Source of the DNA: Nitrospirales bacterium
Lineage (GTDB): Bacteria > Nitrospirota > Nitrospiria > Nitrospirales > UBA8639
Length of the DNA stretch: 50,863 bases
Direction of reading: 5' to 3'
NCBI GenBank assembly: GCA_029261355.1
Contig: JAJDBM010000011.1
Span: 1 to 50,863, forward strand
Shown: positions 34,130 to 49,408 of the stretch, piece after piece
Layout: each line of letters opens with the position of its first letter
Numbering within the stretch: the stretch's first letter is position 1
Made by a program: the position numbers and the translations under genes
Notes under the pieces: model-generated
The model's database searches: none
What the model was told of the DNA's origin: nothing
Seen by the model: only the letters and a program-made list of their open reading frames with translations

Positions 34130-34176
34130 ACGACGTCGGTAGGGTTTTTCAGGGACCTGATAAATTAGGACGTCGT
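34130..34176. repeat. 8-bp inverted repeat between convergent HDOD and GGDEF genes
   Basis: ACGACGTC at 34130-34137 is repeated in inverted form (GACGTCGT) at 34169-34176, 31 bases apart, with a GGTTTTT run between them. The right arm lies within the last codons of the GGDEF gene. It may fold into a long-loop structure or be chance. Confidence 0.25.
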
Positions 34177-35703
34177 GACAAGAGAAGCATTTACTTCCGC
34201 AACGCGAGGTTGATCGTCCCAGAATCCGACTTGATTCCGCCCATTCTCCTTTGCTGCATACAGAGCCTTATCCGCCTGATCAATTAATTCCAGTGGATCG
34301 ACTGTTTCCGATGTGAGGGTCGCGACTCCAAAGCTTGAGGTGATTGTCAGGCCAGACGTGGTTCGAATTTTCCCTCCACTTTCTGCCTCAATTTTCCGAC
34401 AGATACGTTCGGCAATATCAATGGTTCGATTCCGATCGGAATTGGGTAACACGATGCAGAATTCTTCTCCTCCATATCGGCCAATAATATCACCTGTTCG
34501 AAGTACTTCACCAATGGTCTTGACGACGACCTGAATCACTTGATCACCCAAGGCATGTCCATACCGATCATTAAATAGTTTAAAGTGATCGATGTCGGCC
34601 ATAATACAACTCAATGCCGTTCCATTTTCCTTGGCTAATACATACGCACTATCCAATTTCTCAAAAAAGGCACGTCGGTTGAAGCAGCCAGTCAGTGAGT
34701 CCCTTGTGGCCAGTAGTTCAAGCTCTTCATTTTTCTTGAGAACTTCGGTTTGGCTTTCATGCAAATTCTTGAGAGTATCGACCAGGTGGGAATTGGCTTG
34801 ATCTAATTCAGTGACATCATTAAATGCGACAAGTACACCGTTGACCTTGCCATGGTCGTCTGAGATTGGGGAACAGTTGACCAGGAATTTTCTCAGTTGG
34901 CCTTCGGAAGGTGCAAGAACACGCGGAAAACCGGTTTGAGAATCATTCTGGGTGCGGGCCAGCTCCCAAGGAGGCTTCTCGTCCATTTGATCGTCTGTCG
35001 TTAACCATGTGAGGTCAGCAATCTTGGTTCCCAGTAGGTCAGAGATTGATTTTTCCGACTGTCGAAGAAAGGCGGTATTAGCTAAAATAATTCGATCGTG
35101 TGGGTCAAGGATCACGACGCCTTCTTCGAGGTTGTCGAGGGCCGCTTTGACTCGTTTGGGAACAACTGCAGAGGGATCAAGATGTCGTAAGGTGCGTTTC
35201 ATGAAAAAGTAGTATCCAAGAAACCCAATCAATCCGACAAAGGCGATGAACTGAACCCAGGTATGGGCAATAAGTTCTATTGGATCAGATGTATTGTTTG
35301 ATCGAAATCGTACTTGAACGACTCCCCATTTACCAAGACCTTGGAAAATGGGAATTTGTATATGGTCGAGGGTCGACTCAATACCCTGAGGAGGAGTCCA
35401 GGAGTCCAGATGATGTCCTGTCTGGGCCAACGTGGTTCCATCGATAGCCACTAAGGCTGCTGATTGAATATCGGCAGTGCGAGCAACGAGGGCGTTCATG
35501 GCTAACTCAATGGTTTCAAAGTCATCCTGACTGGCCAAGGTAGAATAGAGGACGGCCAGTGATTCAGAGAGCGACCGACGATGCTCAAATGTTATTTTTC
35601 TTTCATCTGGGACGAGCTCAAAGAAAGTATTGCCAAGCAGCATGACACTGATGGTCAAAGAGACAAGCCCGATACTGATTCCCACAAGTGGAGGGAGACG
35701 CAT
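34165..35703 (-). CDS. Membrane diguanylate cyclase (PAS-GGDEF)
   Basis: This 512-residue inner-membrane sensor is predicted to make cyclic di-GMP. Two hydrophobic helices (about 5-25 and 158-180) bracket a periplasmic sensory region. A PAS-like domain (about 195-310, with LGTKIADLTWL and VLVAFNDVTELDQ) follows, then a coiled linker and the GGDEF domain (about 345-495). The active site is GGEEF in GRYGGEEFCIVLP, and RTGD stands exactly five residues before it, a canonical inhibitory I-site for product feedback. It follows the giant surface-protein gene by 33 bases in the same direction, so both are likely on one transcript. ATG 35703 is preferred to an in-frame TTG at 35715. Confidence 0.9.
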   Translation of the reverse strand: MRLPPLVGISIGLVSLTISVMLLGNTFFELVPDERKITFEHRRSLSESLAVLYSTLASQDDFETIELAMNALVARTADIQSAALVAIDGTTLAQTGHHLDSWTPPQGIESTLDHIQIPIFQGLGKWGVVQVRFRSNNTSDPIELIAHTWVQFIAFVGLIGFLGYYFFMKRTLRHLDPSAVVPKRVKAALDNLEEGVVILDPHDRIILANTAFLRQSEKSISDLLGTKIADLTWLTTDDQMDEKPPWELARTQNDSQTGFPRVLAPSEGQLRKFLVNCSPISDDHGKVNGVLVAFNDVTELDQANSHLVDTLKNLHESQTEVLKKNEELELLATRDSLTGCFNRRAFFEKLDSAYVLAKENGTALSCIMADIDHFKLFNDRYGHALGDQVIQVVVKTIGEVLRTGDIIGRYGGEEFCIVLPNSDRNRTIDIAERICRKIEAESGGKIRTTSGLTITSSFGVATLTSETVDPLELIDQADKALYAAKENGRNQVGFWDDQPRVAEVNASLVTTS

Positions 35704-35736
35704 GATTTCGCACAAATAAGGTGAATTGAGAGTGAT

Positions 35737-38700
35737 TTAGTCTTGTTCGGAGTCTCGGAAGATTTCGTCTAAGCCTTGATGTTCTGAATTTTCTTTATTC
35801 ATTTCAGCTTTGTTTCCCTCTTCTCCTGCTTTACGTGCCGTATAGCCTCCGGTGAGGATGGGTAGAGGGTCGAAGTTCCCCCAGGCCGGGAGGGAGGCCA
35901 TGAGGCTTGTGAGGAGCGAGGTTCCTCGTAACATCCAGGCGACGTAGCCAGCCGAGAGCGTGAGACCTGTTCCTGTGGTGACTCCAGAGATGATTTTTGA
36001 GTCAATCTGGTCTTGTTGAACCGTGTCTTGCAGACGTTCGGCTAAGGCATCCAACTGCTGTTCTAGTCCAATGGGGATCGTTGGAGTGGAGTATCGTAAA
36101 TCAAACGTCCGCATGGGGCCCGAGAGCGAATCACTCAAACCAAGGGTGTGTGCGGATGTCAGGTCTCTGGCCTGACTGACTGAGAGAGAGGCGAATTGGT
36201 GATTGAGTTCCCGTCCTATGCGAAAGGCTGTTCCAGATTTGTCAGCCATGTGGTCTTGGGTTGTGCCGTTCGTTAGAACTACGGGAGAGATCGGTCCTTG
36301 CGTTCCTGTGTTCGTAGATGGAGAAGGACTATCCGAGATGTCCAGGCTCTCTTCAGTGTCCGGCTCTTGTTCTGATTGGACTTCCCGTTCTGTTTCTGAC
36401 TCCGGTAGGGGAGGAAGGGCTTCAATAATATTGGTCACGTTCACGACAAGGGATTGAAGGTCAGTGCCCCCGTTGCCGTCATTGACTTGTATCTGGACGA
36501 CGTATTGGTTATCGGCATTCGTATCGTGTGGATTTTCGAAGTCTGGCGTCGTCTTGAATGTTAACGCTCCCGTCCTGCTATTGATGGTGAAGCGACCGGC
36601 ATCGGCTCCACCGACCAGACTGTAACTCAAGGTATCTCCTGGAAGATCCGCATCAGTTCCTGTAACAGTCGTGACGAAAGTAGTCCCCTCAGTAACATTC
36701 ACATTGGCTATTGTTCCTCCACCATTACTCGTGATGACCGGGACGTCATTGAAATCGACCGCTACGATGTTTAGTCCAAACTCTGAGGTATTGCCATAGT
36801 TCCCACTACCTAACGAGATCGTGGCTGTGGCAGTGATGAATTCTCCTGCAAGCACAGCTGCTGATAAGGTGGTATTAATCGTCGCATTTCCTGAGCCATC
36901 CGTCGTGATATCTACGAACCCCAGATAGTCTTCCCCTTCACCGTACTCTGATCCGTCCTGACCGGTAGCTACTGTGTTTCGGAAAAATTCAATACGAAAG
37001 TCAGTGCTGGCAGTACTATTGAGAGACCCGGTTATGGTGACTTCAGATCCAGACTCAATATTTGCAGTGGTGAGGACCGGAAAGTTCTGTAAGGCATTGG
37101 CACCGGTATCGCTATCTCCGGCATCATTGGCCGTGACGCCATCATTATCAATATCAATCCCAATCCCTGAGTTTGAGTGGATGAGATTGCGGAGAAGGCT
37201 ATTTCCAGTGCCAGCTGAGTTATCAAGTGTGATGCCATCTTGGGAGTTATAGGCAATGGTATTGCCGGCATCGCTGGCTGTGCCTCCAATCGTGTTGTTG
37301 GTGCCTGTCGTGATTCGTACGCCACTCCCTCCATTTCCGATATTGATCGTTCCCGTGAGGTCTGTGCCGATGAAATTGCCCTCGACGATCGTGCCACTCG
37401 ACAATCCAGAAAGAATTATTCCGTCACTTGTGTTTCCTGAAATCACATTGCCTGCGCCCGCGGCAGTACCACCAATTTGTGTATTCGCCGCGTTAGCTTC
37501 AATTTGAATTCCTCGGTTAGTATTGGCAAGGGCGGCAGTGCCGGCGGCAGTTGTTCCGATGAAGTTGCCTTGAATCACATTGCTATCAGTCCCAGAGTCC
37601 GTAATGTAAATTCCATCTCCAGTATTTCCAGAAATCACATTACGAGCACTTGTGGTTGTGCCGCCAATGGTATTACTAGAAGCGCTATTATCAATTCGGA
37701 TTCCCGTACCGGTATTTCCAATTGCTGACGTCCCAGCGGCGTTGGTGCCAATATAATTTCCGAGAATCGTATTCCCCGTTGTTCCTGATCCATCGATTTC
37801 GACGCCGTAGCTATTGTTTCCAGAAATGACGTTGCCCGCACCAGCTGTTGCACCTCCAATGGTGTTATTGGTGCTTTGTGTGTCGATCAGGATACCTTGA
37901 TCTGTATTGCCCAAATCAGCCGTCCCCGTGACATCCACACCAATATAATTACCCTGGATAATATTGCTACTGGTGCCAGAACCATAAATATCAAATCCGC
38001 GACTATCATTGCCTGAAATAATATTACGAGTAGCAGCCGTTGTCCCGCCAATGGTATTGCTGGAAGCGGCACCAGAAAGTTGAACCCCATCATCACTATT
38101 GCCGAGATCAAGAGTTCCGGTGACGTCTGTGCCAATATAATTACCCGTGATAATATTGCCTGTCGCGCCTGCTTCGTCTATTTCAATACCATCAAAGGCA
38201 TTGCCTGAGATAATGTTGCGATCAGCACTGGTGGTTCCGCCAATGGTATTATTCGCGCCAGAAATATCGATGCCGTCGTCGTTATTGCCTAAATCAATGG
38301 TGCCCGTGACGTCTGTCCCAATATAATTGCCGACAATGGTGTTATTGTCCGAAACAATTTGTATGCCGTCATCGGCAAATTGATTAATGACCAATCCACG
38401 AATCGTACTGCCATCGCTTCCTGAGGCGAGGAATAAGCCCTCTATTCCAACACCCGTTGCACTACCATCTAATTCAATAATCGGTGTCGACGAAAAATCA
38501 GAATCGGTGGTTCCATCGATGATGACGGTCTCGGTAATGGAGTCAAGCCCGCTGGCCCCGACAGCAATCGTATGGGCTCCGCCGACGAGGGCATCAGAGA
38601 TTTGGAAATAAATATAGTCTGTTCCGTCTTCGGTATTCGCGACCTCAATCGCTTCTCTTAACGACACGCCATCACCCCCATCATTGCCTACTAAGGCCTC

Positions 38701-41700
38701 TTTAGAGGTGACCGTGCCGTTACTAGTGTCCGTAGTGTTAGTGACGACGATCGCGCCGACATGAATATCCACGGTGTCCGTGTCGGTTTTCGCGCCCCCT
38801 GAGCCGGTAAAGCCTTGATCGTCTGTGGCGAGCGTGAGCTGAGCTAACCCGCGGAAACTGGTGGTGGGGTCAAACCTTAATCCCTCGAGGGCGGTGTTAA
38901 TCTCGCTTACAGTACCTGTAAAGGTCATGGTTGAATCTGAAGTGCCATTCCCGATGGTGAAAGACAAACCTGTTGTGCCTGCGAGGGTCAATGTCCCATT
39001 CGTGACGGTTAGGGTTACTTCTAGATCACTGGAGCTGGCATCGACATCGCTGATACTGATGAGATTGCTATTTCCCGAGGAGAAGACAACAGCGGTATTG
39101 AGGGCCGTAAACTCATTCGACGGCATGCTGTTTACGGGATTATCATTAACGGCTGTAATGTTCACCGTCGTGCTGCCCGTATCTGTGAGTGCGCTGCCCG
39201 TGCCCTGACTGCCCGTATTACCATCATTAAACGTCCAGTCAATTTGTGCCGAGGCGGGAGGAGCATCAGAGCTGTTGGTGTAGGTAAGTTGTCGAAGAAT
39301 CGTGTCCACGTCTGACGACGTGGGCGTTTCACCATTTACGTCAGTGAAGGTGATGACGAGTTGGCCAGCAGTCGTTGTGGAATCAAAGCTGGCGATGATT
39401 TGGCTATTCTTGATGAGGTTACCCCCACTCAATGTAATCCCATTGTCATCGATGAAGGATAAGACATCTTCACTTGATGCCCCGCCATTGCGCACAAGGG
39501 TGAGACTGGCCCCTGCATAATTCCCGTTGCCGCTGTTGAGGGCATCCAATTCGCTGTCGCTGATTTGGACATCCACATCTAACACCATGGCCGCACCATC
39601 TTCAGTGAAGCTGGGATTGCCATCAAGTGTCGCCATAAGTGCAAAACTGGTATCGAGCGTGCCGTCACTGTTGTAGCGGGCGAGGGCAAAGTCGGCATTG
39701 CTCCCATTGGAACTTTTTCCTGCGAGTAGGATCTTTCCATCGGTTTGCAAGGCCATGCTGTAGGCTCGATCTACGCCACTAGTAATTTCGGTATTGACAA
39801 TCCCAGTTCCGCCGCCAAAGGTGGTATCGACGGTTCCATCGGCCAGATAGCGTGCCACCGAAAATTTATCAGTCGAGTTGCCCCCATAGCCCGCTATGAG
39901 AATTTTCCCATCAGGTTGCACGACCATGTCGAGGGCTTCGGCGGCGGCATCTCCGGTGGTAATGACGATGCCATCGCCACCACCAAAGCTGGTATCGAGC
40001 GTGCCATCAGCATTGTATTTGAGCAGGACGAAGTCTGCTCCACCACCGGAAGTGGTGAGTGATCCACTAGCCAAAATTTTTCCATCAGATAACACGGTGA
40101 CTGTCTCACCAAAATCCGAACGCGTCCCATCGCTCACGGCCGTGGTGACGATGCCATCGCCTCCGCCAAAACTCGTGTCGAGGGTGCCGTCCGCGTTATA
40201 GCGAAGTAAGGTGAAATCAAGCTTACTCCCTGTGTTGCCTTGGCCCCAGACCAGAATTTTTCCATCGGTTTGTACTGTGACACTGTGCCCCGAATCTAGG
40301 CCACTGCCGATGGCGGTGGTGACGATACCGTCGCCGCCGCCAAAGCTGGTATCGAGTGTGCCGTCGGTATTGTAGCGCACCAACAGAATGTCTGTATTCG
40401 ACCCCCCGGTAAAGCTCGATCCTGTCACCAAGATTTTCCCATCACTTTGGAGCGTGACACTCTCCCCAAGCTCCAGAAAAGCAACGGTTGTTCGAACAAT
40501 GCCATCACCACCCCCAAAACTTGTATCCAATGTCCCATCACTGTTATAGCGCACTAGAGCCAAGTGTTTACCCGCACCAATATACGATTCTCCCGCCAGC
40601 AAGATTTTCCCATCCGCCTGTATTATAATACTATGACTTCGATCAAAATTCGTGCTTCCAAGATCGGTCGTCACAATCCCATCCCCGCCGCCAAAACTCG
40701 TATCTAGGGTCCCATCGGTGTTGTAGCGGGTCAGGGAAAAGTCCCATTCAGTTGAGTCAGGAGTAATCGCGGTCGCGGTATAACCACCAACTAAAATTTT
40801 CCCATCTGCCTGCACGGCCACACTTTGCCCAATATCGTCTCCACTCCCAATGGTAGTGGTGACGGTGCCATCACCCACGTCAAACGTAGGCGCGTCATTG
40901 GCATCAATGACCGTCACTGTTGTGTCATAGTTGGCGGAGGTGCCACCATCGCCATCGGTGAGTACAGAGCGAACGGTGCGGCTGGTGGTCGTGGGGTTTT
41001 CGGTGTCGGTATTTTCATAGGTGATATTTTGAACTAGGGCACTGACGGCGGTCGGCGTGGCGTTGCTATCGAAGGTGATGACTAAGTTAGTACCACTGGT
41101 GCCGCCGGTGAAGGTCCCGATGGTGATGCCTTCGTAGGTCACAGCGAAGCCACTGACGCCGATTTGACCCGAACTGGTGCCTTGGTTTTGGATGCCTAAG
41201 ACATCTTCTGTACTATCTGACCCCGCCGTGACGCTCACGGTCAGGGTGCCGGTATCGAAGTCAGAAGAGTCGCTATCAGTGACCGTGGCGTTGGAAGATT
41301 GATCAATGACCTGCGCTCCGTCCCCTTCGGTATAAGTCAGGCTATCGCCGCCGAAGTTGGCAATGACGGGTGGCGTTGGTCCTAGTACGCCGGAGAATTC
41401 TTGTTGGGCAATTTCATTGACCACGATGGCCGTTTCAATTGATCCCGTTTGGTACTCTAATTCCCAGTCCCCCCCTAGGGCGGTATCTCCAGTCAAGTCT
41501 TGTGATGCCGCAATGTCTGCACCTGTTAGCTGCGCTAATCGTATGGCCGCGTTTTGGCCGACTTGGCCTTCGCCGAAGTTGCACCCATAAATCAAGAAAT
41601 CCGCATCCGCATTCAACGCCTGGTTTATGATAGACAGCTCATTCGCATATTCATTTGTCATGGATTCAACGGTGAGGGTTCCGGTGCCCAATCGAAGTTC

Positions 41701-42111
41701 CCCTTGATTGCCATGCGAGATGAGGTGGATAGCGTCAATGTCCGTGTAGTCCTGAAGGATGGCCGCTATTTGTTCAAGACCGTCACGGGTTGAGTCGAGC
41801 AAGATGACTTCGGCATTGGAGCTGATGCCGGCCATGAGTGTTTGATAGTCGTTCACGCTGGTATCGATAAAGACCAGTTCCCGTCGTTCGGCGGGAAATC
41901 CAAACGAATCCACGACTTTCCGGAGTGAGTCTTGTTGGGCTGCAGCTGTTTGTGCCTGTTCGTGTTCGGTATCACCGGGCTCGGCGTCAGTGGTTTGTGT
42001 GGCATCGGCTTCTTGGCTAACTTCGGCTCCGGTGAGGAGCGCGGCGGCATCGAACATGACTCGTGGCTCTAATGCGAGTAAGGATTCGGTGACGGTGTGA
42101 TTTGTTTTCAT
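35737..42111 (-). CDS. Giant repeat-rich surface protein with DUF4347 and LEPR-type N-terminus
   Basis: This 2124-residue protein is a probable exported adhesin. Residues 10-28 hold the sorting-like LLALEPRVMFDAAALLTGA (LEPR-XLL type). Residues about 77-235 are DUF4347, with His133 in AIHLISHGNQ and Cys177 in FLIYGCNFG, placed like a caspase-fold dyad. Seven delta-60 repeats (about 427-822) are followed by cadherin-like linkers, a SLREAIEVAN motif (about 1150) and a right-handed beta-helix with six repeats (about 1258-1637). A cadherin domain (about 1784-1895), an acidic Pro/Ser linker and a C-terminal hydrophobic segment GYVAWMLRGTSLLTSLMASL (about 2058) complete it. There is no Sec signal peptide and no RTX repeat. 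It lies just upstream of a diguanylate cyclase and is oriented like the exporter operon at 43394-49408. Confidence 0.9.
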   Translation of the reverse strand: MKTNHTVTESLLALEPRVMFDAAALLTGAEVSQEADATQTTDAEPGDTEHEQAQTAAAQQDSLRKVVDSFGFPAERRELVFIDTSVNDYQTLMAGISSNAEVILLDSTRDGLEQIAAILQDYTDIDAIHLISHGNQGELRLGTGTLTVESMTNEYANELSIINQALNADADFLIYGCNFGEGQVGQNAAIRLAQLTGADIAASQDLTGDTALGGDWELEYQTGSIETAIVVNEIAQQEFSGVLGPTPPVIANFGGDSLTYTEGDGAQVIDQSSNATVTDSDSSDFDTGTLTVSVTAGSDSTEDVLGIQNQGTSSGQIGVSGFAVTYEGITIGTFTGGTSGTNLVITFDSNATPTAVSALVQNITYENTDTENPTTTSRTVRSVLTDGDGGTSANYDTTVTVIDANDAPTFDVGDGTVTTTIGSGDDIGQSVAVQADGKILVGGYTATAITPDSTEWDFSLTRYNTDGTLDTSFGGGDGIVTTDLGSTNFDRSHSIIIQADGKILLAGESYIGAGKHLALVRYNSDGTLDTSFGGGDGIVRTTVAFLELGESVTLQSDGKILVTGSSFTGGSNTDILLVRYNTDGTLDTSFGGGDGIVTTAIGSGLDSGHSVTVQTDGKILVWGQGNTGSKLDFTLLRYNADGTLDTSFGGGDGIVTTAVSDGTRSDFGETVTVLSDGKILASGSLTTSGGGADFVLLKYNADGTLDTSFGGGDGIVITTGDAAAEALDMVVQPDGKILIAGYGGNSTDKFSVARYLADGTVDTTFGGGTGIVNTEITSGVDRAYSMALQTDGKILLAGKSSNGSNADFALARYNSDGTLDTSFALMATLDGNPSFTEDGAAMVLDVDVQISDSELDALNSGNGNYAGASLTLVRNGGASSEDVLSFIDDNGITLSGGNLIKNSQIIASFDSTTTAGQLVITFTDVNGETPTSSDVDTILRQLTYTNSSDAPPASAQIDWTFNDGNTGSQGTGSALTDTGSTTVNITAVNDNPVNSMPSNEFTALNTAVVFSSGNSNLISISDVDASSSDLEVTLTVTNGTLTLAGTTGLSFTIGNGTSDSTMTFTGTVSEINTALEGLRFDPTTSFRGLAQLTLATDDQGFTGSGGAKTDTDTVDIHVGAIVVTNTTDTSNGTVTSKEALVGNDGGDGVSLREAIEVANTEDGTDYIYFQISDALVGGAHTIAVGASGLDSITETVIIDGTTDSDFSSTPIIELDGSATGVGIEGLFLASGSDGSTIRGLVINQFADDGIQIVSDNNTIVGNYIGTDVTGTIDLGNNDDGIDISGANNTIGGTTSADRNIISGNAFDGIEIDEAGATGNIITGNYIGTDVTGTLDLGNSDDGVQLSGAASSNTIGGTTAATRNIISGNDSRGFDIYGSGTSSNIIQGNYIGVDVTGTADLGNTDQGILIDTQSTNNTIGGATAGAGNVISGNNSYGVEIDGSGTTGNTILGNYIGTNAAGTSAIGNTGTGIRIDNSASSNTIGGTTTSARNVISGNTGDGIYITDSGTDSNVIQGNFIGTTAAGTAALANTNRGIQIEANAANTQIGGTAAGAGNVISGNTSDGIILSGLSSGTIVEGNFIGTDLTGTINIGNGGSGVRITTGTNNTIGGTASDAGNTIAYNSQDGITLDNSAGTGNSLLRNLIHSNSGIGIDIDNDGVTANDAGDSDTGANALQNFPVLTTANIESGSEVTITGSLNSTASTDFRIEFFRNTVATGQDGSEYGEGEDYLGFVDITTDGSGNATINTTLSAAVLAGEFITATATISLGSGNYGNTSEFGLNIVAVDFNDVPVITSNGGGTIANVNVTEGTTFVTTVTGTDADLPGDTLSYSLVGGADAGRFTINSRTGALTFKTTPDFENPHDTNADNQYVVQIQVNDGNGGTDLQSLVVNVTNIIEALPPLPESETEREVQSEQEPDTEESLDISDSPSPSTNTGTQGPISPVVLTNGTTQDHMADKSGTAFRIGRELNHQFASLSVSQARDLTSAHTLGLSDSLSGPMRTFDLRYSTPTIPIGLEQQLDALAERLQDTVQQDQIDSKIISGVTTGTGLTLSAGYVAWMLRGTSLLTSLMASLPAWGNFDPLPILTGGYTARKAGEEGNKAEMNKENSEHQGLDEIFRDSEQD
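37195..38345 (-). repeat. Six tandem 63-residue beta-helix repeats within the giant gene
   Basis: Units of about 189 bases encode a pattern of the kind GNYIGTDVTGT, LGN, NTIGGT, RNVISGN, DGI and GN.I. The units keep phase through the block and differ mainly at surface positions, as expected of a right-handed parallel beta-helix. They are protein repeats, not a CRISPR or integron array. Confidence 0.85.
39646..40833 (-). repeat. Seven tandem delta-60-type repeats within the giant gene
   Basis: Units of about 57 residues, each with SDGKILV near the start and RYN.DGTLDTSFGGGDGIV near the end, match the delta-60 (DUF5122) repeat thought to build a beta-propeller. Seven units would close one propeller. 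The DGTLDTSFGGGDG core is nearly identical between units, so the DNA is also close to a tandem repeat and a candidate for copy-number change. Confidence 0.85.
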
Positions 42112-42643: not shown

Positions 42644-43360
42644 ATGCTTACAATGCCTCAGACTCAGCCTGTCGTCGTTCATTCTAAACAGACACCGCTT
42701 GCCCAAGTCCTTTGTCAGGTATCGTTCCCGAATATTCTGAAAAATTCTTTACAATTAGCTGCAAAGTTTCAGAGCCACATTCATACTCAATTTCCGTATG
42801 CCAGTCTCACCGCTAATCAAAAATCCTCCAATTATTTCGCAAAGGATCGCCTGAGCCATCTCACATTGGCCCCTCAATCACTGAGTCTTGTGACGAGTCG
42901 GTACGGTGGCTGGGAGTCTGTGCGAGATCAATTTTGGGTACCGGTTAACGCCCTGGTTCAGGAATATGATCTTCCGTTTATTGTCCGAGTCAGATTACGA
43001 TTTTCCCATGTCATTCGGCGCGCACGTTTGGGGTTAGGGAATCATGAATGGAATGAGTTACTCAAATCAAAGGCAGCCAATGCTGGTGGGTGGGATGAGG
43101 TCTCTCAAAATATGCATGGGAGTCGTACTGAAGTGGTGATGGCGTTGGATGATCCCTCGCAACGATTACGCGTGATTCATGGAGTGGTAAACGTAAATGG
43201 CGAGACAGATGAACAAGCCTATCTGCTTGACCACGATTTCTTTTCTGAAAAGGAAATGAGTATTGAGGAAGTCTTTGCTAATTTGGATACCTTTCATGTC
43301 GAGGCGAGTGTTCTCTTGCAAGGTTGGACTTCCAAGATAATTCCAAGTGGCAAGCTCTGA
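42644..43360 (+). CDS. TIGR04255-family uncharacterised protein
   Basis: This 238-residue cytoplasmic protein matches the layout of the sporadically distributed TIGR04255 family of unknown function. It opens with a PLAQVLCQVSFP strand, then HLTLAPQSLSLVTSRYGGWE, LPFIVRVRLRFSHVIRRARL, LGNHEWNELL and QAYLLDHDFFSE in the family's order. Starts at ATG 42644 or 42653 are both possible. It is inserted on the opposite strand between the giant gene and the exporter operon and converges on the latter with 33 bases between the ends. Its sporadic phylogenetic spread (family knowledge) hints at transfer or a conflict-type role, but none is shown here. Confidence 0.7.
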   Translation: MLTMPQTQPVVVHSKQTPLAQVLCQVSFPNILKNSLQLAAKFQSHIHTQFPYASLTANQKSSNYFAKDRLSHLTLAPQSLSLVTSRYGGWESVRDQFWVPVNALVQEYDLPFIVRVRLRFSHVIRRARLGLGNHEWNELLKSKAANAGGWDEVSQNMHGSRTEVVMALDDPSQRLRVIHGVVNVNGETDEQAYLLDHDFFSEKEMSIEEVFANLDTFHVEASVLLQGWTSKIIPSGKL

Positions 43361-43393: not shown

Positions 43394-45520
43394 CTAGAAT
43401 CCCATTTCACTGATGAGTATCGAAAGGCTCCAATCCCAGAATCGTGCCACAAAGCTGTGGGGCTCACCGTTCACATGGATGACGCCTTTAATCACTTGAT
43501 TCGGCAGTTTTTGTTTGTCAATGGGGGTTAGCGTAATGCGGTAGACTGCTGCCTCGGGGCGCAGGTCACCATTTAGATCTTTGCGTACGGGAATGTCTCC
43601 GCCAAAGATGGAGGCAAGATAGGGTATTTCGAGTATTTCTTCATCCACTTCTCGTATGTCTTTAATCCGTGCACGACGAGTGGGACGTAGTGGATCGTCT
43701 GGGATAAAAGTCGCGTCTTGTCCCACTGATAACCGTGGTAATTCTGTTTCCGGTGATAAGCCCACCAGTTCGATCTGTTCAAGGTTAATCAGCCGAGCCA
43801 ACGGAAGTTTTTCGTTGATCCAGCGATCAGGGTGCAAGGAGCGCTGAAGGTCAACCACCATGCCTGAAAATGGCGCTTTCAACTCTAAGTTTTCCTGCCT
43901 TTCACGTAATCCTTCTAGCTTCGATCTCTGCATCTTCAACTCTTCAATAATTACGGGGGTTTTTGTCAACTGGTCGGCATTGCCAGCGATCCTAGAGAGC
44001 CAGATGTTGAGCGCCTGTAATTGTTGCGTCGTTTGCATGATGTCACGTTCAAGGGTCGGAGCCTCTAAGCGGACAAGGACATCCCCCTTTTTGATGGTTT
44101 GACCATTATTCATGGTTACCTGAATCAGCCGACCAGGGGTGGGAGAGAAAATCGTTGTATGGAGTTGGGATTGGGAGATACCTGGAATGGAGACGCGTGT
44201 ACTCCAGGGAATGCAGACAAGTATGACAAGGAAGACGAATAAGACTCCGGTTATCCAAATTCGATTTTTGAGAAGGATGTCATGACGGAGTTTCCACCAT
44301 TCTGTCAGTTCCTGTGTCACAGGCATGAGAATAAACCAGACAATTTCGACCGCAAATAAGATGATCCCCAGCAGTTTGAAGAAATAGTGATAGACGAGAA
44401 GGGCGATTCCTAAAAAGAGGAAGAACCGGAATACCCAAATGGACCATGCATAGATGATGAGAGAATTTCTCATTTTAGGAGAGAATGTTTCGGGTGGGTG
44501 TGCCCCAAGGCCAAATGTCCATTCCCGCATTTTCCACCGTCCAATGGTGAAGGCTCGCTGTTGGAGATTGGGGACTCCCAGCCAATCAGAGAGGAAGTAG
44601 TATCCGTCAAAACGTAATAACGGGTTGAGATTAATCGCGACAGACATGACCCAACTTGTTGTGGCTAAGGTGAAGGCGATACTGCGGAAAATGCCATCTG
44701 GGAGGAAATTCCATAAAAAGGTGGCCAACATGGCGATGCCGAGCTCAACAATCACGCCAGCGGCGGCAATGTTCAGACGCTCATTGCGTCGCGTGAGTCG
44801 CCAGGCATCCGTGGTGTCGGTGTAGAGCACAGGGAACATGACCAAAAAAGCCACACCCATCGTATGGACTCGACAGCCAAATTTTGTCGTGGTATAGGCA
44901 TGTCCTAATTCATGTAAGACCTTGACTCCACATAAAGCAAACCCAAAAGCTAACATACCTTCTAGTGTGAACATATGGAGGAAGGTATTGGAGAAAGTGT
45001 CCCATTGGCGACTGACGAGATATATTCCCATAACGCCAAGAAATATCACTATGATTGCGATTCTTTTTGTCATGAGTGGTGCAATATATGGCAAGGTTAT
45101 TTTGAGCAGACGATCGGGTTGTGTGAGAGGTATTTTGAAAAAGAGATAGTGATGGACCAATGCGGTGAGCCAATGTTGTTTGCGAGCTACTGCTTGCATG
45201 GCAAACGAGGCACTTCCACCAGATTGCGGGTTTTGTGTCAAATGATTGGTATAGAGAAAATTGATGAACTCCTCCACTTCTTTTTGAGTGGTAGAGGAGG
45301 TTGTTTCAGAGGTGACTCGTGTGATGAGGTGTTCGAGAGTTCCTGCTTTCCATCGTGATAACAGTTGATAGGCGCCCCAACCAATTTGAAAATAGGCATT
45401 CCGGATAGGGTCGACAATCGTCCATGTTGGCTCTCCTTGAATGGTGGCCATACCTTTGACAATTTGTATATCGTCACGTAGAGGAGGGAGCGATAGGTCT
45501 TGAGGAGGTTGATTGTCCAT
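43394..45520 (-). CDS. PqqD-like / M50 zinc protease / HlyD fusion membrane protein
   Basis: This 708-residue inner-membrane protein has three parts. Residues about 15-100 resemble PqqD-type peptide-binding domains (LPPLRDDIQIVKGMATIQG, then TWTIVDPIRNAYFQIGWGAY). Residues about 130-420 are polytopic with the site-2-protease motif VLHELGHAYTTTKFGC (HExxH at about 203-207) and the distal ligand block NPLLRFDGYYFLSDWL (about 302). From about 455 on comes a HlyD-type adaptor with a lipoyl half-motif SPTPGRLIQVTMNNGQTIKK, a coiled hairpin and ELKAPFSGMVVDLQ. Its ATG overlaps the upstream stop by one base (TAATG), so translation is coupled. Such fusions are annotated as putative peptide zinc metalloproteases. 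Here it replaces the pump of a TolC/HlyD system. Confidence 0.88.
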   Translation of the reverse strand: MDNQPPQDLSLPPLRDDIQIVKGMATIQGEPTWTIVDPIRNAYFQIGWGAYQLLSRWKAGTLEHLITRVTSETTSSTTQKEVEEFINFLYTNHLTQNPQSGGSASFAMQAVARKQHWLTALVHHYLFFKIPLTQPDRLLKITLPYIAPLMTKRIAIIVIFLGVMGIYLVSRQWDTFSNTFLHMFTLEGMLAFGFALCGVKVLHELGHAYTTTKFGCRVHTMGVAFLVMFPVLYTDTTDAWRLTRRNERLNIAAAGVIVELGIAMLATFLWNFLPDGIFRSIAFTLATTSWVMSVAINLNPLLRFDGYYFLSDWLGVPNLQQRAFTIGRWKMREWTFGLGAHPPETFSPKMRNSLIIYAWSIWVFRFFLFLGIALLVYHYFFKLLGIILFAVEIVWFILMPVTQELTEWWKLRHDILLKNRIWITGVLFVFLVILVCIPWSTRVSIPGISQSQLHTTIFSPTPGRLIQVTMNNGQTIKKGDVLVRLEAPTLERDIMQTTQQLQALNIWLSRIAGNADQLTKTPVIIEELKMQRSKLEGLRERQENLELKAPFSGMVVDLQRSLHPDRWINEKLPLARLINLEQIELVGLSPETELPRLSVGQDATFIPDDPLRPTRRARIKDIREVDEEILEIPYLASIFGGDIPVRKDLNGDLRPEAAVYRITLTPIDKQKLPNQVIKGVIHVNGEPHSFVARFWDWSLSILISEMGF

Positions 45521-46968
45521 TAGAAGCCGAGATACTGGCGTGTTGTTGAAATTGGACGGCGAAATAAGAGAAAGAAGACGGAAGTTTTTTCGCCGTAGAT
45601 TTTGGCGGTGCCACGCCATCCGATTCGAATGTCAGGGGGAGTTTCTTGTAATGTGCCGGTGACTTTATAGGCCAACACTTGTTCAGGTAACTGGACGGCT
45701 TGATAACTTGCATGGGTCAGCGTGGCCGCTAGTGTTTCCAATGGTTTGGCATCGAGGAATACTTCAATGGGCGCCTGTTCTTTCAGAATAATGGCGTCGA
45801 CCACGGGGAGTTCGATGGCCAACTCTATTTTGCCCGGGTCCGCAATTTCCATGATCCGTTCTCCTGCCTCGATTGGGCGGCCAATCCAATCCGATTGATC
45901 GGAGTATAAGAGCAACCCCGTTTTGGTGGCTTTCACTTCCACTTGTTCAAGTCGTTCTAGGGTATAGTCGAGTTCGGTCTCTCGTAAATGGACCTCTGCT
46001 TTGAGTAATGGAAGGTGAGCCTCATTGTCGTCGACAGAGAAGGCTTCCTGTGCGGCTTTTCGATATTCTGCGATGGCCTTCGAGAGATTTTGTTCAGCCA
46101 CTTCATAGGCGCTGCGAAGATTGGTGCTTTCATAGACGAATAGGCTTTCTCCAATTTTGACGGACGTATTGGGATGAACCAGAATTTCAGCAATAATCCC
46201 ATCCATTGGGGCACTGATCATGGCTGGATCTTTTGCGACAATCTCTACTGGAGCCAACGTTGATAGGTGAACGGGGAGGGCTAGTGTGATCAGGCCAACC
46301 ATTAATGCCAGCCAGAAGAGCCATGTTCGTATTCCATTCCTATTGATTGTAACTTTTTTCTTGCCTGTGAGTGCGCCCCAGGCGTGGGCATAGGTGTCTG
46401 ACAATCGTTGAGCAACTGTAGCTTCACTATCTTCCCAAGGGGTTTCCTTTGAAAGCCAAAGACCACCGAGGAATGTTTTGTCCGGTAATATGAAGGGACA
46501 CCATAAGACATGAGCGAACGAGAATTCTTTCCATTCAGCCTTGAGATCTGGTGAACCATCACTGTCAGAGAAGCGTTGGGTTTTGGGTTTGTCGCCCGTC
46601 TCACGATGCTTGTGTAATGTTCGCTCGAGCCATTGAGTGAGTGGGGCATCACGTTCTACCACAGGGACGCTTGATGCGGTTTCAAGGTGACATGGTTTTC
46701 GTGGTGTTGATCCGGCTTGAAAAAGAAATGCTTGTCGATAGGGCAATAATCGACGGGTTTCGTTGACGGTGAGAAATTGTAGTTCCTTAATGCTTTGAGC
46801 CATTCGAGCTTGGGGCTCTAATTGGAGGAGCGTGAAGATCGCTTGGAGTTCAAGGGGCGGTGGCTCTGGAATCTCTTGGGAGCTTGAAGAGGCAGACGCA
46901 TCAACCGATGGCTGAGGGGATGGTGTGTGTGCCTGCTCGAGAACGGAAGCTCTGGATTCGTCTGGCAT
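45520..46968 (-). CDS. HlyD-family adaptor with N-terminal GAF-like domain
   Basis: The 482 residues split into a cytoplasmic GAF-like region (about 40-205, with LELQAIFTLLQLEPQARMAQ, TRRLLPYRQAFLFQAG and GLWLSKETPW), one membrane helix (TWLFWLALMVGLITLALPV, about 214-232) and a periplasmic HlyD domain. That domain has the lipoyl motif ISAPMDGIIAEILVHPNTSV, a helical hairpin, and VEVKATKTGLLLYSDQ. An adaptor with a possible sensory domain on the cytoplasmic side is unusual. It sits between the simpler HlyD gene (41 bases upstream) and the M50 fusion (overlap one base) in a four-gene operon. Confidence 0.82.
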   Translation of the reverse strand: MPDESRASVLEQAHTPSPQPSVDASASSSSQEIPEPPPLELQAIFTLLQLEPQARMAQSIKELQFLTVNETRRLLPYRQAFLFQAGSTPRKPCHLETASSVPVVERDAPLTQWLERTLHKHRETGDKPKTQRFSDSDGSPDLKAEWKEFSFAHVLWCPFILPDKTFLGGLWLSKETPWEDSEATVAQRLSDTYAHAWGALTGKKKVTINRNGIRTWLFWLALMVGLITLALPVHLSTLAPVEIVAKDPAMISAPMDGIIAEILVHPNTSVKIGESLFVYESTNLRSAYEVAEQNLSKAIAEYRKAAQEAFSVDDNEAHLPLLKAEVHLRETELDYTLERLEQVEVKATKTGLLLYSDQSDWIGRPIEAGERIMEIADPGKIELAIELPVVDAIILKEQAPIEVFLDAKPLETLAATLTHASYQAVQLPEQVLAYKVTGTLQETPPDIRIGWRGTAKIYGEKTSVFFLLFRRPISTTRQYLGF

Positions 46969-47009
46969 AGTGGCTTTCTGAAAGGTTCATTGAACCTTTT
47001 GTGGGCATG

Positions 47010-47903
47010 TTACTGCTTGATAGTCGATAGGCGTTTTCGTGTGTTGTGTTGTGTCTGTTTTCTTTTTGAATGCGCATTCGTGCTGTCTATTTTTTCTAGG
47101 GTGACAGCCTTGGGTTTGTTGGAGAACAGGGCACTACCACTCATGCCGGATAACATGGACTTTGGTTTGTGTTTGAATTTTCCACTGACTCGAATGGTTT
47201 GACTGACGGGGTCAATGCTTGCTCCAAGGTCTGTGACTGTTCCTGAGTGGGTCTGTCCTGTTTCGTCAACAGTGAACTGAAATGTCATGCCTTTTTTGAG
47301 CCATGAAATCGATGAAGATGGAAGAATAAGTTCAACCTCAAAGCGGCTATCGTCCAAGATGCTGAATAACTCATCATATGGATTGACACTTTCATATTGA
47401 TGGACCAACATTTTAATGACTCTTCCAGAAAATGGTGCGTGAATTGTGCAATGTTGGGTATTGATGGTGGCAATGTTGATCGCGGTTATGGATTTCTTAA
47501 CATCCACTTTGGCCATATCGACTTCTAGCTGTCCAATAGAGTTGAGAGAGGCCATCTCTAGATTGTTCTCTAGAGTCATTTTTCTTGCTTCATATTCCGT
47601 TCGCGCTGCATTAAGCTCCGCGTGATATTTTTTACAATCAAACTTCACCAAGGCTTGTCCCTTTTTAAAACGTTGTCCATCTTTGAATGGCAGATGAATG
47701 ATGCGTGCTTGGATGTCACTCGATATCGTTGCACTGACGGCTGGCTTGATAAGGCCGCGAATTGTGTCGAGTCCAGAGGTTTGTGTGGCTGTGGGCTTTT
47801 TCGCTTTAGATTCTGCAATCTCAGGCGCGACGATCATGAGGCAGTACATGACTACATTGAGCCAGACAATTCTCTGAGGATATGGTGTCAGCAAAGAATT
47901 CAT
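47010..47903 (-). CDS. HlyD-family periplasmic adaptor protein
   Basis: This 297-residue membrane-fusion protein bridges inner-membrane partners to TolC. An N-terminal hydrophobic segment (VWLNVVMYCLMIVAPEIAES) precedes the half-lipoyl SDIQARIIHLPFKDGQRFKK, a short helical hairpin, CTIHAPFSGRVIKMLVHQYE, and beta domains (GTVTDLGASIDPVSQTIRVS). The C-terminus is basic. The start ATG at 47903 overlaps the TolC stop as ATGA, so it is coupled to the outer-membrane component. Confidence 0.88.
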   Translation of the reverse strand: MNSLLTPYPQRIVWLNVVMYCLMIVAPEIAESKAKKPTATQTSGLDTIRGLIKPAVSATISSDIQARIIHLPFKDGQRFKKGQALVKFDCKKYHAELNAARTEYEARKMTLENNLEMASLNSIGQLEVDMAKVDVKKSITAINIATINTQHCTIHAPFSGRVIKMLVHQYESVNPYDELFSILDDSRFEVELILPSSSISWLKKGMTFQFTVDETGQTHSGTVTDLGASIDPVSQTIRVSGKFKHKPKSMLSGMSGSALFSNKPKAVTLEKIDSTNAHSKRKQTQHNTRKRLSTIKQ

Positions 47904-49408
47904 GAGTCTTGTTCGGAGGTTCTCATCGTGTTATCCGCTTGAACGAGCATATCCCATCTCGTACGTAATTTATTCGCGAGTTCAATGACTGTCGTCTCCT
48001 TGGTGGTGATGGGTACTGGATCTTCGCCAATTGCGCCGATGAGATTGGCGTAAGCCGTTTCAAGTTCTGATAGGGCAACATCGTAGCGAAGTTCGGCGAG
48101 TAAGTTGTTGAGGCGTTCCCTTATGACCATTTGTTCACTCACACGTTTGGTTTTCCATGACACGTGGACATGTTTGCCTATTTCTTTTTGCGTGTCATAG
48201 AACATTTTTGTACTGCGTACTTCCATGTGCGCAGCGGTGAGTTGAGCCATGCTGACATGGACTTGAGTCATAATAGCCATGGTCAATGCCATACTTTGAG
48301 CTTCAAGGAGTTGATCTTGTGCCTCAATCATCTTGAATTGGGCTGGTTGTCGGAAGAGAGAGAGAAGATTCCAACTGATTTTCGCTCCGTATGTCAGCCA
48401 ATGATTGTTAAACAGAAATGAGTTGTTATTGTAGTTTGGTCCAAATTCAATGTTGAGTTTGGGTAACATGTCTAAAATGGCGGCTTTGGTTTCACGAGTG
48501 TTAATGCGTTGTCGATAATCAATGGCTCGAAGTTCTGATCGGTTTCCGAGCGCTCGGCGTTCTAAGACTTCCAGATCCAATTTCCTATCAGGAATGAGAG
48601 TCTGACGTTTAGGCAATGCCAGTTCAAATGATTCACCTGGAGCCAGATTGATGAGTTTGGCAAGTTCGAATCTTGCTAACGACAGTTTGTGATGAAGCTT
48701 GTGAATTTCGTTGTGCGTCGTCATCAATTCACGTTGATACTTGAGAGTGGCGAGTGGTGAGTCTAAATGTCGTTCTTGCACGGATTGAGAATCTTTGAGA
48801 GCTTTTGATACCCAATCATCAAGATGCGCGAGTCGTCCTAGGATGCGATCGGAGCTGACGGCACGCCAGTAGGCGATGCGTACATCTTGAGTCACTCTAT
48901 TGGCGACCCGTCGTTTTTCTTCTTCGGCGATCAAGACGTCATCTGCGGCTTGTTGGGCCCGAATATATGACAGTCCAAAATCCAGCACATCCCAACTTAA
49001 TGATAAGTCTGCGGTGAAGAGGTTTTTGTCTGATGATGTCGATGGTTCCAGTGATGTTTGGCCGCTGAGGAGTGAGCGACTTGTGGCCCCACTGAAATTA
49101 TTTCTGCCATCATAGCCTGCATTCGCCGCTAACTTGGGAAGGAGGTCATAATGCGACAGATCGAGTTTGTTATGGGCGAGCATGGTTTTCATCAGTTCAA
49201 CCCTGGCCTCGAGGTTGTATTTCAGCGCACGCGCCATCGCTTCATACAGGTCAATTGGAGCTTGGATAGCCTCCTGCCCTTTATGTAAGTTTTCCAGATG
49301 ATGGTCAACTCGCCTGTGAATGTCTTGTTCCGTTAGCACCGTTGGGGTGATCATACAACCATTGAGTAAGAAAAATAGACTGATGATTTTATTTATTTTT
49401 ATATACAT
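47900..49408 (-). CDS. TolC-family outer-membrane efflux lipoprotein
   Basis: This 502-residue outer-membrane channel heads the exporter operon. The N-terminus has a signal peptide ending in a lipobox (LFFLLNGCMITP), so the mature protein is lipid-anchored. Two long alpha-helical repeats follow, with YEAMARALKYNLEARVELMK at the start of repeat 1, NLFTADLSLSWDVLDFGLSY in the first strand-turn, RALGNRSELRAIDYRQRINT at the start of repeat 2, and NNHWLTYGAKISWNLLSLF. TolC trimers form the exit duct in secretion and efflux systems. ATG 49408 is chosen over the adjoining TTG. The 460 bases upstream presumably carry the operon promoter. Confidence 0.9.
   Translation of the reverse strand: MYIKINKIISLFFLLNGCMITPTVLTEQDIHRRVDHHLENLHKGQEAIQAPIDLYEAMARALKYNLEARVELMKTMLAHNKLDLSHYDLLPKLAANAGYDGRNNFSGATSRSLLSGQTSLEPSTSSDKNLFTADLSLSWDVLDFGLSYIRAQQAADDVLIAEEEKRRVANRVTQDVRIAYWRAVSSDRILGRLAHLDDWVSKALKDSQSVQERHLDSPLATLKYQRELMTTHNEIHKLHHKLSLARFELAKLINLAPGESFELALPKRQTLIPDRKLDLEVLERRALGNRSELRAIDYRQRINTRETKAAILDMLPKLNIEFGPNYNNNSFLFNNHWLTYGAKISWNLLSLFRQPAQFKMIEAQDQLLEAQSMALTMAIMTQVHVSMAQLTAAHMEVRSTKMFYDTQKEIGKHVHVSWKTKRVSEQMVIRERLNNLLAELRYDVALSELETAYANLIGAIGEDPVPITTKETTVIELANKLRTRWDMLVQADNTMRTSEQDS

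Follow-up and report, generated by a model that had tools for sequence, protein, structure and literature searches.

A TolC–HlyD gene cassette with an M50 protease and no encoded pump, linked to giant LEPR-leader proteins

The window analysed here, a stretch of 50,863 nucleotides from a Nitrospirales bacterium (contig JAJDBM010000011.1 of assembly GCA_029261355.1), contains a cassette of four export-type genes and, nearby, a gene for a giant protein, all on the minus strand. The first gene of the cassette encodes a TolC/OEP outer-membrane channel (47900..49408, 502 amino acids), a NodT-like lipoprotein that matches PF02321 at 2.6e-25 and has the lipobox LNGC at its N terminus. The second product is a periplasmic HlyD/RND (resistance-nodulation-division)-type adaptor, or membrane fusion protein (MFP; 47010..47903, 297 amino acids), with an N-terminal signal sequence (hydrophobic segment at residues 12–30; PF13437 at 3e-17, TIGR01730 at 112 bits). 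The third, GAF-HlyD (45520..46968, 482 amino acids), combines a cytoplasmic GAF N terminus, a single transmembrane segment (residues 217–235) and an HlyD adaptor (HlyD_3, 2.2e-8). The fourth, M50-HlyD (43394..45520), is a fusion of a PqqD-like domain, an M50 intramembrane metalloprotease and HlyD (PF02163, PF13437; model pLDDT 89). The TolC and MFP genes overlap by 4 bases, 41 bases separate MFP from GAF-HlyD, and the GAF-HlyD stop codon overlaps the M50 ATG at 45520 as TAATG. The four coupled genes described in an earlier note on this DNA, made from the letters alone, are thus all found on one strand with overlaps or short gaps. An alternative start of the M50 open reading frame at 45619 would give 741 residues and an overlap with GAF-HlyD of 100 bases. 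Translation more probably begins with the ATG at 45520, where TAATG joins the GAF-HlyD stop to the M50 start, and the protein would then be 708 residues long. TolC and HlyD proteins normally serve type I secretion or efflux. The window operon includes no ATP-binding cassette (ABC) or RND gene, and the nearest relatives are from Nitrospirales.

The M50-HlyD protein begins with a predicted PqqD/RRE-like domain (residues ∼14–100, 45221..45481), RRE being the recognition element for ribosomally synthesized and post-translationally modified peptides (RiPPs). Comparison with PqqD proteins using hhalign gave an E value of 1.3e-5 and a probability of 80%, the model predicts a strand-strand-strand-helix-helix-helix order, and sister M50-HlyD paralogues, described below, match PqqD directly at 22.7–25.2 bits. 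The PqqD Pfam match is weak in the window-type branch itself (2 of 59 homologues, at 0.15). The protease part contains the zinc motif HELGH (residues 203–207, 44900..44914) and the second S2P motif NLNPLLRFDG (residues 297–306, 44603..44632), and PF02163 is above its cut-off. H203, E204 and H207 as well as N297, P300, R303, D305 and G306 are invariant, and HExxH and N-x-x-P-x-x-R-x-D-G are kept in 59 of 59 aligned homologues; since both motifs are retained throughout, the M50 part is probably an active protease. Residues 421–708 (43397..44260) make up a HlyD/MacA-like adaptor half with structural similarity to MacA (9qgy_G, VIA Z 16.9) and to a MacA-MexA chimera (16.4), and matches to this half took up the structure-comparison lists sought for the M50 membrane and PqqD parts. 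RiPP-type M50 relatives (daptide, YydH) are among the best NCBIfam matches, the daptide_HExxH match reaching 154 bits, under the cut-off of 300. The fusion proposed in the earlier note is therefore backed by the profile-profile PqqD match, the invariant S2P motifs and the HlyD half, and the GAF-like domain was confirmed by PF01590 matches in 11 of 50 GAF-HlyD homologues (best 2.4e-6).

One scan of genome contigs gave 499 confirmed relatives, from which 80 loci were taken; the tallies cover the 58 loci with sufficient upstream room. GAF-HlyD is present at all 58, MFP at 54, TolC at 51 and an adjacent giant gene at 51 (27 called via DUF4347 or the LEPR leader, both described below, and 24 via size and composition). 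The cassette occurs in Nitrospirota, Proteobacteria (including SAR11 and E. coli plasmids) and Desulfobacterota, and because it is conserved over phyla the four-gene arrangement is far beyond chance. Giant genes often lie within the operon, next to TolC, and annotated plasmids of Azospirillum, Variovorax, Burkholderia and E. coli have the order giant-TolC-MFP-HlyD-M50HlyD. The cassette was found in 24 of 5,426 complete E. coli genomes, mostly on plasmids. Plasmid pKL53-L of E. coli KL53 (L041, 2340-22133) carries the full cassette and a 4,473-residue LEPR-type/DUF4347 giant, with insertion sequences around them.

A pump is rarely encoded near these loci. An ABC gene of the type I secretion system (T1SS) kind lies near the cassette at 1 of the 58 (Serratia, L081, an exporter together with HlyD), an AcrB-like RND gene at another (Pantoea, L113), about 8 kb away, and a dedicated RND pump at none. 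Around the 80 window-type loci no conserved accessory or pump family was found beyond unrelated ABC genes. An ABC or RND pump is thus no routine component of homologous operons, in agreement with the pump-less export operon first described from the window. The three HlyD proteins might nevertheless recruit an ABC exporter encoded elsewhere, of T1SS or other type, as the transporter, in which case M50 would just process the client. HlyD and TolC proteins do normally partner ABC or RND pumps, a T1SS exporter with HlyD stands beside the Serratia cassette, one cassette genome (G000) has a PrtD-type exporter on a contig other than the cassette's, and generic MsbA-like ABC proteins remain candidates. 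We consider this explanation unlikely, given how seldom a T1SS ABC gene adjoins the cassette and given that the giants are mostly not repeats-in-toxin (RTX) proteins. Moreover, a genome-wide search with two T1SS ABC profiles, LssB-type and PrtD-type, yielded no exporter over threshold in five near-complete cassette genomes (G001, G012, G016, G019 and G033, which have only the window type of cassette), so the cassette need not rely on a T1SS exporter in trans in those genomes; as a requirement such an exporter was rejected for several Nitrospirales. Genomes G038 and G056, in turn, have LssB-type exporters yet no cassette. A further ABC search at a limit of 1e-108 would miss HlyB/LssB types, as it missed that of L081, and was not used as proof of absence.

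The best client candidate named in the earlier note is the giant protein of 2124 amino acids encoded at 35737..42111. It comprises a LEPR leader, DUF4347, delta-60 propeller repeats, cadherin/Ig regions and a C-terminal hydrophobic segment (PF14252 at 3.6e-56, PF17164 at 2.1e-79). Its candidacy is well supported by the co-occurrence of cassette and giants, which is complete in Nitrospirales and strong elsewhere. Among 61 Nitrospirales genomes, full-length M50-HlyD and DUF4347 are found in the same 20 and the other 41 have neither (20/20 versus 0/41; Fisher 1.6e-16, with relatedness ignored). Both are jointly missing in some members of five Nitrospirales genera (g1, g9, g12, g13 and g15). Outside Nitrospirales, 25 of 29 genomes with the cassette contain DUF4347, versus 0 of 14 control genomes. 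In Micavibrio, one of the four exceptions, two LEKRLMLDAS proteins are encoded next to TolC; in the other three this position is taken by large genes. An even sample of 125 Alphaproteobacteria gave DUF4347 in 6 of 9 cassette genomes versus 4 of 116 without the cassette (p 3e-6). DUF4347 is missing from three cassette genomes; in the two that were inspected, the cassette lies on short contigs. In three of the four cassette-less genomes with DUF4347 (G112, G167 and G190; G146 was left out), the inspected proteins lack a LEPR leader, DUF4347 lying almost at their very start. The LEPR leader, more than DUF4347, therefore tracks the cassette, and DUF4347 alone was rejected as a client mark. Loci L139, L140, L141 and L142 are cassette-less alphaproteobacterial loci with such leaderless proteins.

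It could be argued that the cassette exports or matures something else, such as a small peptide or a drug, and that the giant is a mere neighbour. The M50 family includes RiPP maturases, and in the window a convergent gene separates the giant from the cassette. The joint presence and absence of cassette and LEPR giants over several classes and phyla, including within the five genera above, and the frequent position of the giants inside the operon next to TolC make this very improbable.

The LEPR leader of the window giant (residues 10–30 around LLALEPRVMFDAAALL, 42022..42084) is common to cassette-adjoining giants, which are surface-type proteins, of several classes and phyla. Giants beside annotated plasmid-type cassettes have the N-termini LALEPRLLYDAA, LALEPRVVYDAS, ALEPRFMFDAAG and ALESRQLFDGAA, and the client leader, LEPRxMFDAA, appears to be of a non-Sec type. 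A Sec-like hydrophobic core (KD11 ≥ 2.0) was found in the leaders of 0 of 33 giants, versus 91% of the MFP N-termini at the same loci, and a Sec signal on the giants was rejected, on hydrophobicity only. RTX substrates were likewise rejected as clients, the giants not being RTX proteins as a rule: the window giant has no RTX repeats, and at least three repeats occur in just 2 of 53 giants or fragments.

Membrane-spanning helices are the usual targets of S2P enzymes, and the C-terminal hydrophobic segment of the Nitrospirota giants could be a substrate of this kind. The giants might then reach the periplasm by Sec via an unusual signal, the cassette serving as an outer-membrane retention/release gate resembling LapA/LapD/LapG, with GAF as the sensor and M50 cutting the anchor; the GAF domain and a co-encoded diguanylate cyclase suggest control. 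A Sec route is at odds with the lack of a Sec-like core in all 33 leaders, however, and a PqqD-like domain with three adaptors exceeds what release needs. The SecA-type motor of the sister cassette, described next, also points to translocation, and we regard a release gate as rather unlikely.

M50-HlyD paralogues only distantly related to the window type (about 26% identity) occur in three Nitrospirales genomes, and in a quick tree a long, well-supported branch separates them from it. Their clusters (L122, 8865-11012 and neighbours; L123; L124) consist of GAF-HlyD, PqqD-M50-HlyD, a SecA paralogue of 663–696 amino acids, MFP and TolC. The SecA paralogue is found in exactly 3 of the 61 Nitrospirales genomes (G025, G050 and G054), which are those with the sister cluster, and none was found near the 80 window-type loci. 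A dedicated SecA for the window type was rejected, as it was not found near the loci or in Nitrospirales with the window type only. A related arrangement has been reported by Kamneva, Poudel and Ward in 2015 (PMC4452313), who described a locus with a secondary SecA_DEAD, M50-HlyD, GAF-HlyD and HlyD, sometimes with OEP/TolC and with no ABC transporter. They proposed that M50 is a membrane pore replacing the ABC transporter and that SecA is the ATPase; the clients were not identified in that work. The window type shares with this locus the combination of GAF-HlyD, M50-HlyD and HlyD without ABC, and unlike it has no SecA paralogue and is nearly always accompanied by TolC and LEPR/DUF4347 giants. 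The window cassette is a SecA-less variant of this little-known, putative export locus, now with probable clients. The sister clusters of L122 and L123 adjoin LEARVLLA and LEGRILLA (LE-x-R-LLA) proteins, which suggests that two related exporters have corresponding leaders, the planctomycete-type LE-x-R-LL in one case and LEPRxMFD in the other. That the protease itself might be the engine, as had been proposed from the window, is not supported, since M50 has no NTPase and the closest sister cassette places a SecA-family ATPase beside M50-HlyD. Judging from this placement, M50-HlyD would serve for recognition, cleavage and gating at the membrane, and a separate motor would drive transport.

DUF4347 of the window giant (41383..41877) scores 189.9 bits with PF14252 against a gathering cut-off of 24.6. 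Its model (core pLDDT above 90) is most similar to Tce1 (9qpe, VIA Z 12.7), followed by SAVED-CHAT (10.2), TPR-CHAT (about 8) and caspases (about 7). In the alignment the cysteine is invariant and the histidine nearly so, being replaced by E in L044 and L046. The corresponding residues of the window giant are His133 and Cys177, the latter being the sole cysteine among its 2,124 residues. From profile, alignment and model comparison, DUF4347 is a predicted clan CD-type caspase/CHAT-like fold with a His/Cys dyad, and a putative peptidase. For Tce1, the dyad has been reported as that of a putative cysteine protease (PMC13323088). Domains of this sort had already been grouped under the name CPDadh, as cited in PMC2900308, so the fold is not new; the new element is its link to the export cassette. 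Like window DUF4347, the CPDadh/DUF4347 cysteine peptidase domains (Tce1 and the MARTX-type CPD kin) have a caspase-like fold and a His/Cys dyad. Tce1 is a cargo of the type VI secretion system, whereas window DUF4347 follows a LEPR leader in the N-terminal part of a giant and is associated with an export cassette.

We propose, as the probable though by no means certain reading, that the cassette exports and processes giant LEPR-leader proteins as a dedicated apparatus without an ABC transporter, in which M50 is both gate and processor and the motor acts in trans. From the gene content, its conservation, the folds and the conserved motifs, we infer the following order of events. The giant would be made without a Sec signal, and the PqqD-like domain of M50-HlyD would recognize its LEPR leader on the cytoplasmic side, much as RRE domains recognize RiPP leaders, a role established for these domains in general. 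The M50 site would cleave the leader or otherwise license entry, and the three HlyD parts would form a periplasmic bridge to the TolC lipoprotein, through which the chain exits in one step. The DUF4347 protease may trim the exported product, and the GAF domain, plus the co-encoded diguanylate cyclase in Nitrospirota, may tune activity. Energy would come from a motor in trans, with housekeeping SecA as the first candidate, because in the nearest relative a SecA-like ATPase is encoded at this very place, and an ABC protein as the second. A bolder version, which we advance tentatively and would lean slightly against, is that this is a distinct Gram-negative secretion system, with an active intramembrane metalloprotease, fitted with a PqqD-like reader and HlyD arm, as the inner-membrane entry port for LEPR giants, and lacking an ABC or RND pump as well as a dedicated motor; its sister would be the planctomycete-type locus that bears SecA, where LE-x-R-LL would be the matching leader.

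Several points weigh against an ABC-free exporter of LEPR giants. No motor is encoded; an extra SecA is absent from 27 of the 29 cassette genomes outside Nitrospirales and from all Nitrospirales with the window type only, and nothing in the analysis ties housekeeping SecA to the cassette. The convergent gene parts the cassette from the giant in the window, although in most sister genomes the giant directly follows M50. Hydrophobicity only crudely replaces a signal-peptide predictor, the association of cassette and DUF4347 in Alphaproteobacteria is not absolute, and the tallied genomes are related, so that the p-values do not refer to independent events. Finally, the C-termini of Nitrospirota and proteobacterial giants differ, and one recognition rule may not cover all giants. 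A C-terminal motif of the type [FL]xxQ[LIV] is present in 58% of 38 giants versus 1.8% of random windows (an exploratory comparison, the pattern having been picked after viewing the ends), and instead of this proteobacterial motif Nitrospirota giants often end in a hydrophobic stretch with a DPLPVL tail.

The proposed apparatus has HlyD and TolC parts and the one-step export of giant adhesin-like proteins in common with type I secretion (HlyB-HlyD-TolC; LapBCE). It differs in having a membrane protease in place of the ABC exporter, an N-terminal LEPR leader and clients mostly without RTX repeats. In contrast to tripartite efflux pumps of the RND or MFS (major facilitator superfamily) type, no inner-membrane pump is encoded with the adaptor. 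A PqqD-like domain joined to M50 is also found in RRE/PqqD-M50 peptide maturases (daptide HExxH, YydH/LiaK), from which the window type is set apart by its HlyD fusion, its giant clients and match scores that fall short of the equivalog thresholds. Giants of the LEPR/DUF4347/tandem-repeat kind are widespread; the literature yielded no account of how they are exported, nor anything on a SecA-less cassette with LEPR/DUF4347. The cassette is a candidate for such a route, which would combine a duct and a processing protease with a reader of the clients' address tag. The LEPR-M50-HlyD link joins the SecA/M50/HlyD locus of 2015, which lacked clients, and the LEPR-XLL proteins, which lacked an exporter. 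It raises the question of what drives export where no ABC or RND pump is encoded, and tractable hosts such as Azospirillum are available.

Two further genes flank the giant gene. Directly downstream is a PAS-GGDEF diguanylate cyclase gene (34165..35715, minus strand; PF00990 at 1.1e-44), which is probably co-transcribed with it. A PAS-GGDEF gene also directly follows the giant in L043 (21106-22223), L046, L052, L083 and L127, representing several Nitrospirota and one Nitrosomonas locus, and the adjoining cyclases hint at c-di-GMP control. The convergent gene between cassette and giant belongs to the TIGR04255 family (42644-43360, plus strand); a gene of this family is also near the giant in L053 (12327-13169, minus strand). 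The complete Nitrospirales genome G019 has four DUF4347 giants around one cassette (L126/L127, G019:C1:4034000-4070000), as if one exporter served several clients. In a cassette-bearing gammaproteobacterial metagenome-assembled genome (L086; G070, contig C20:8699-9151), the DUF4347 match lies within an open frame of 13,078 codons.

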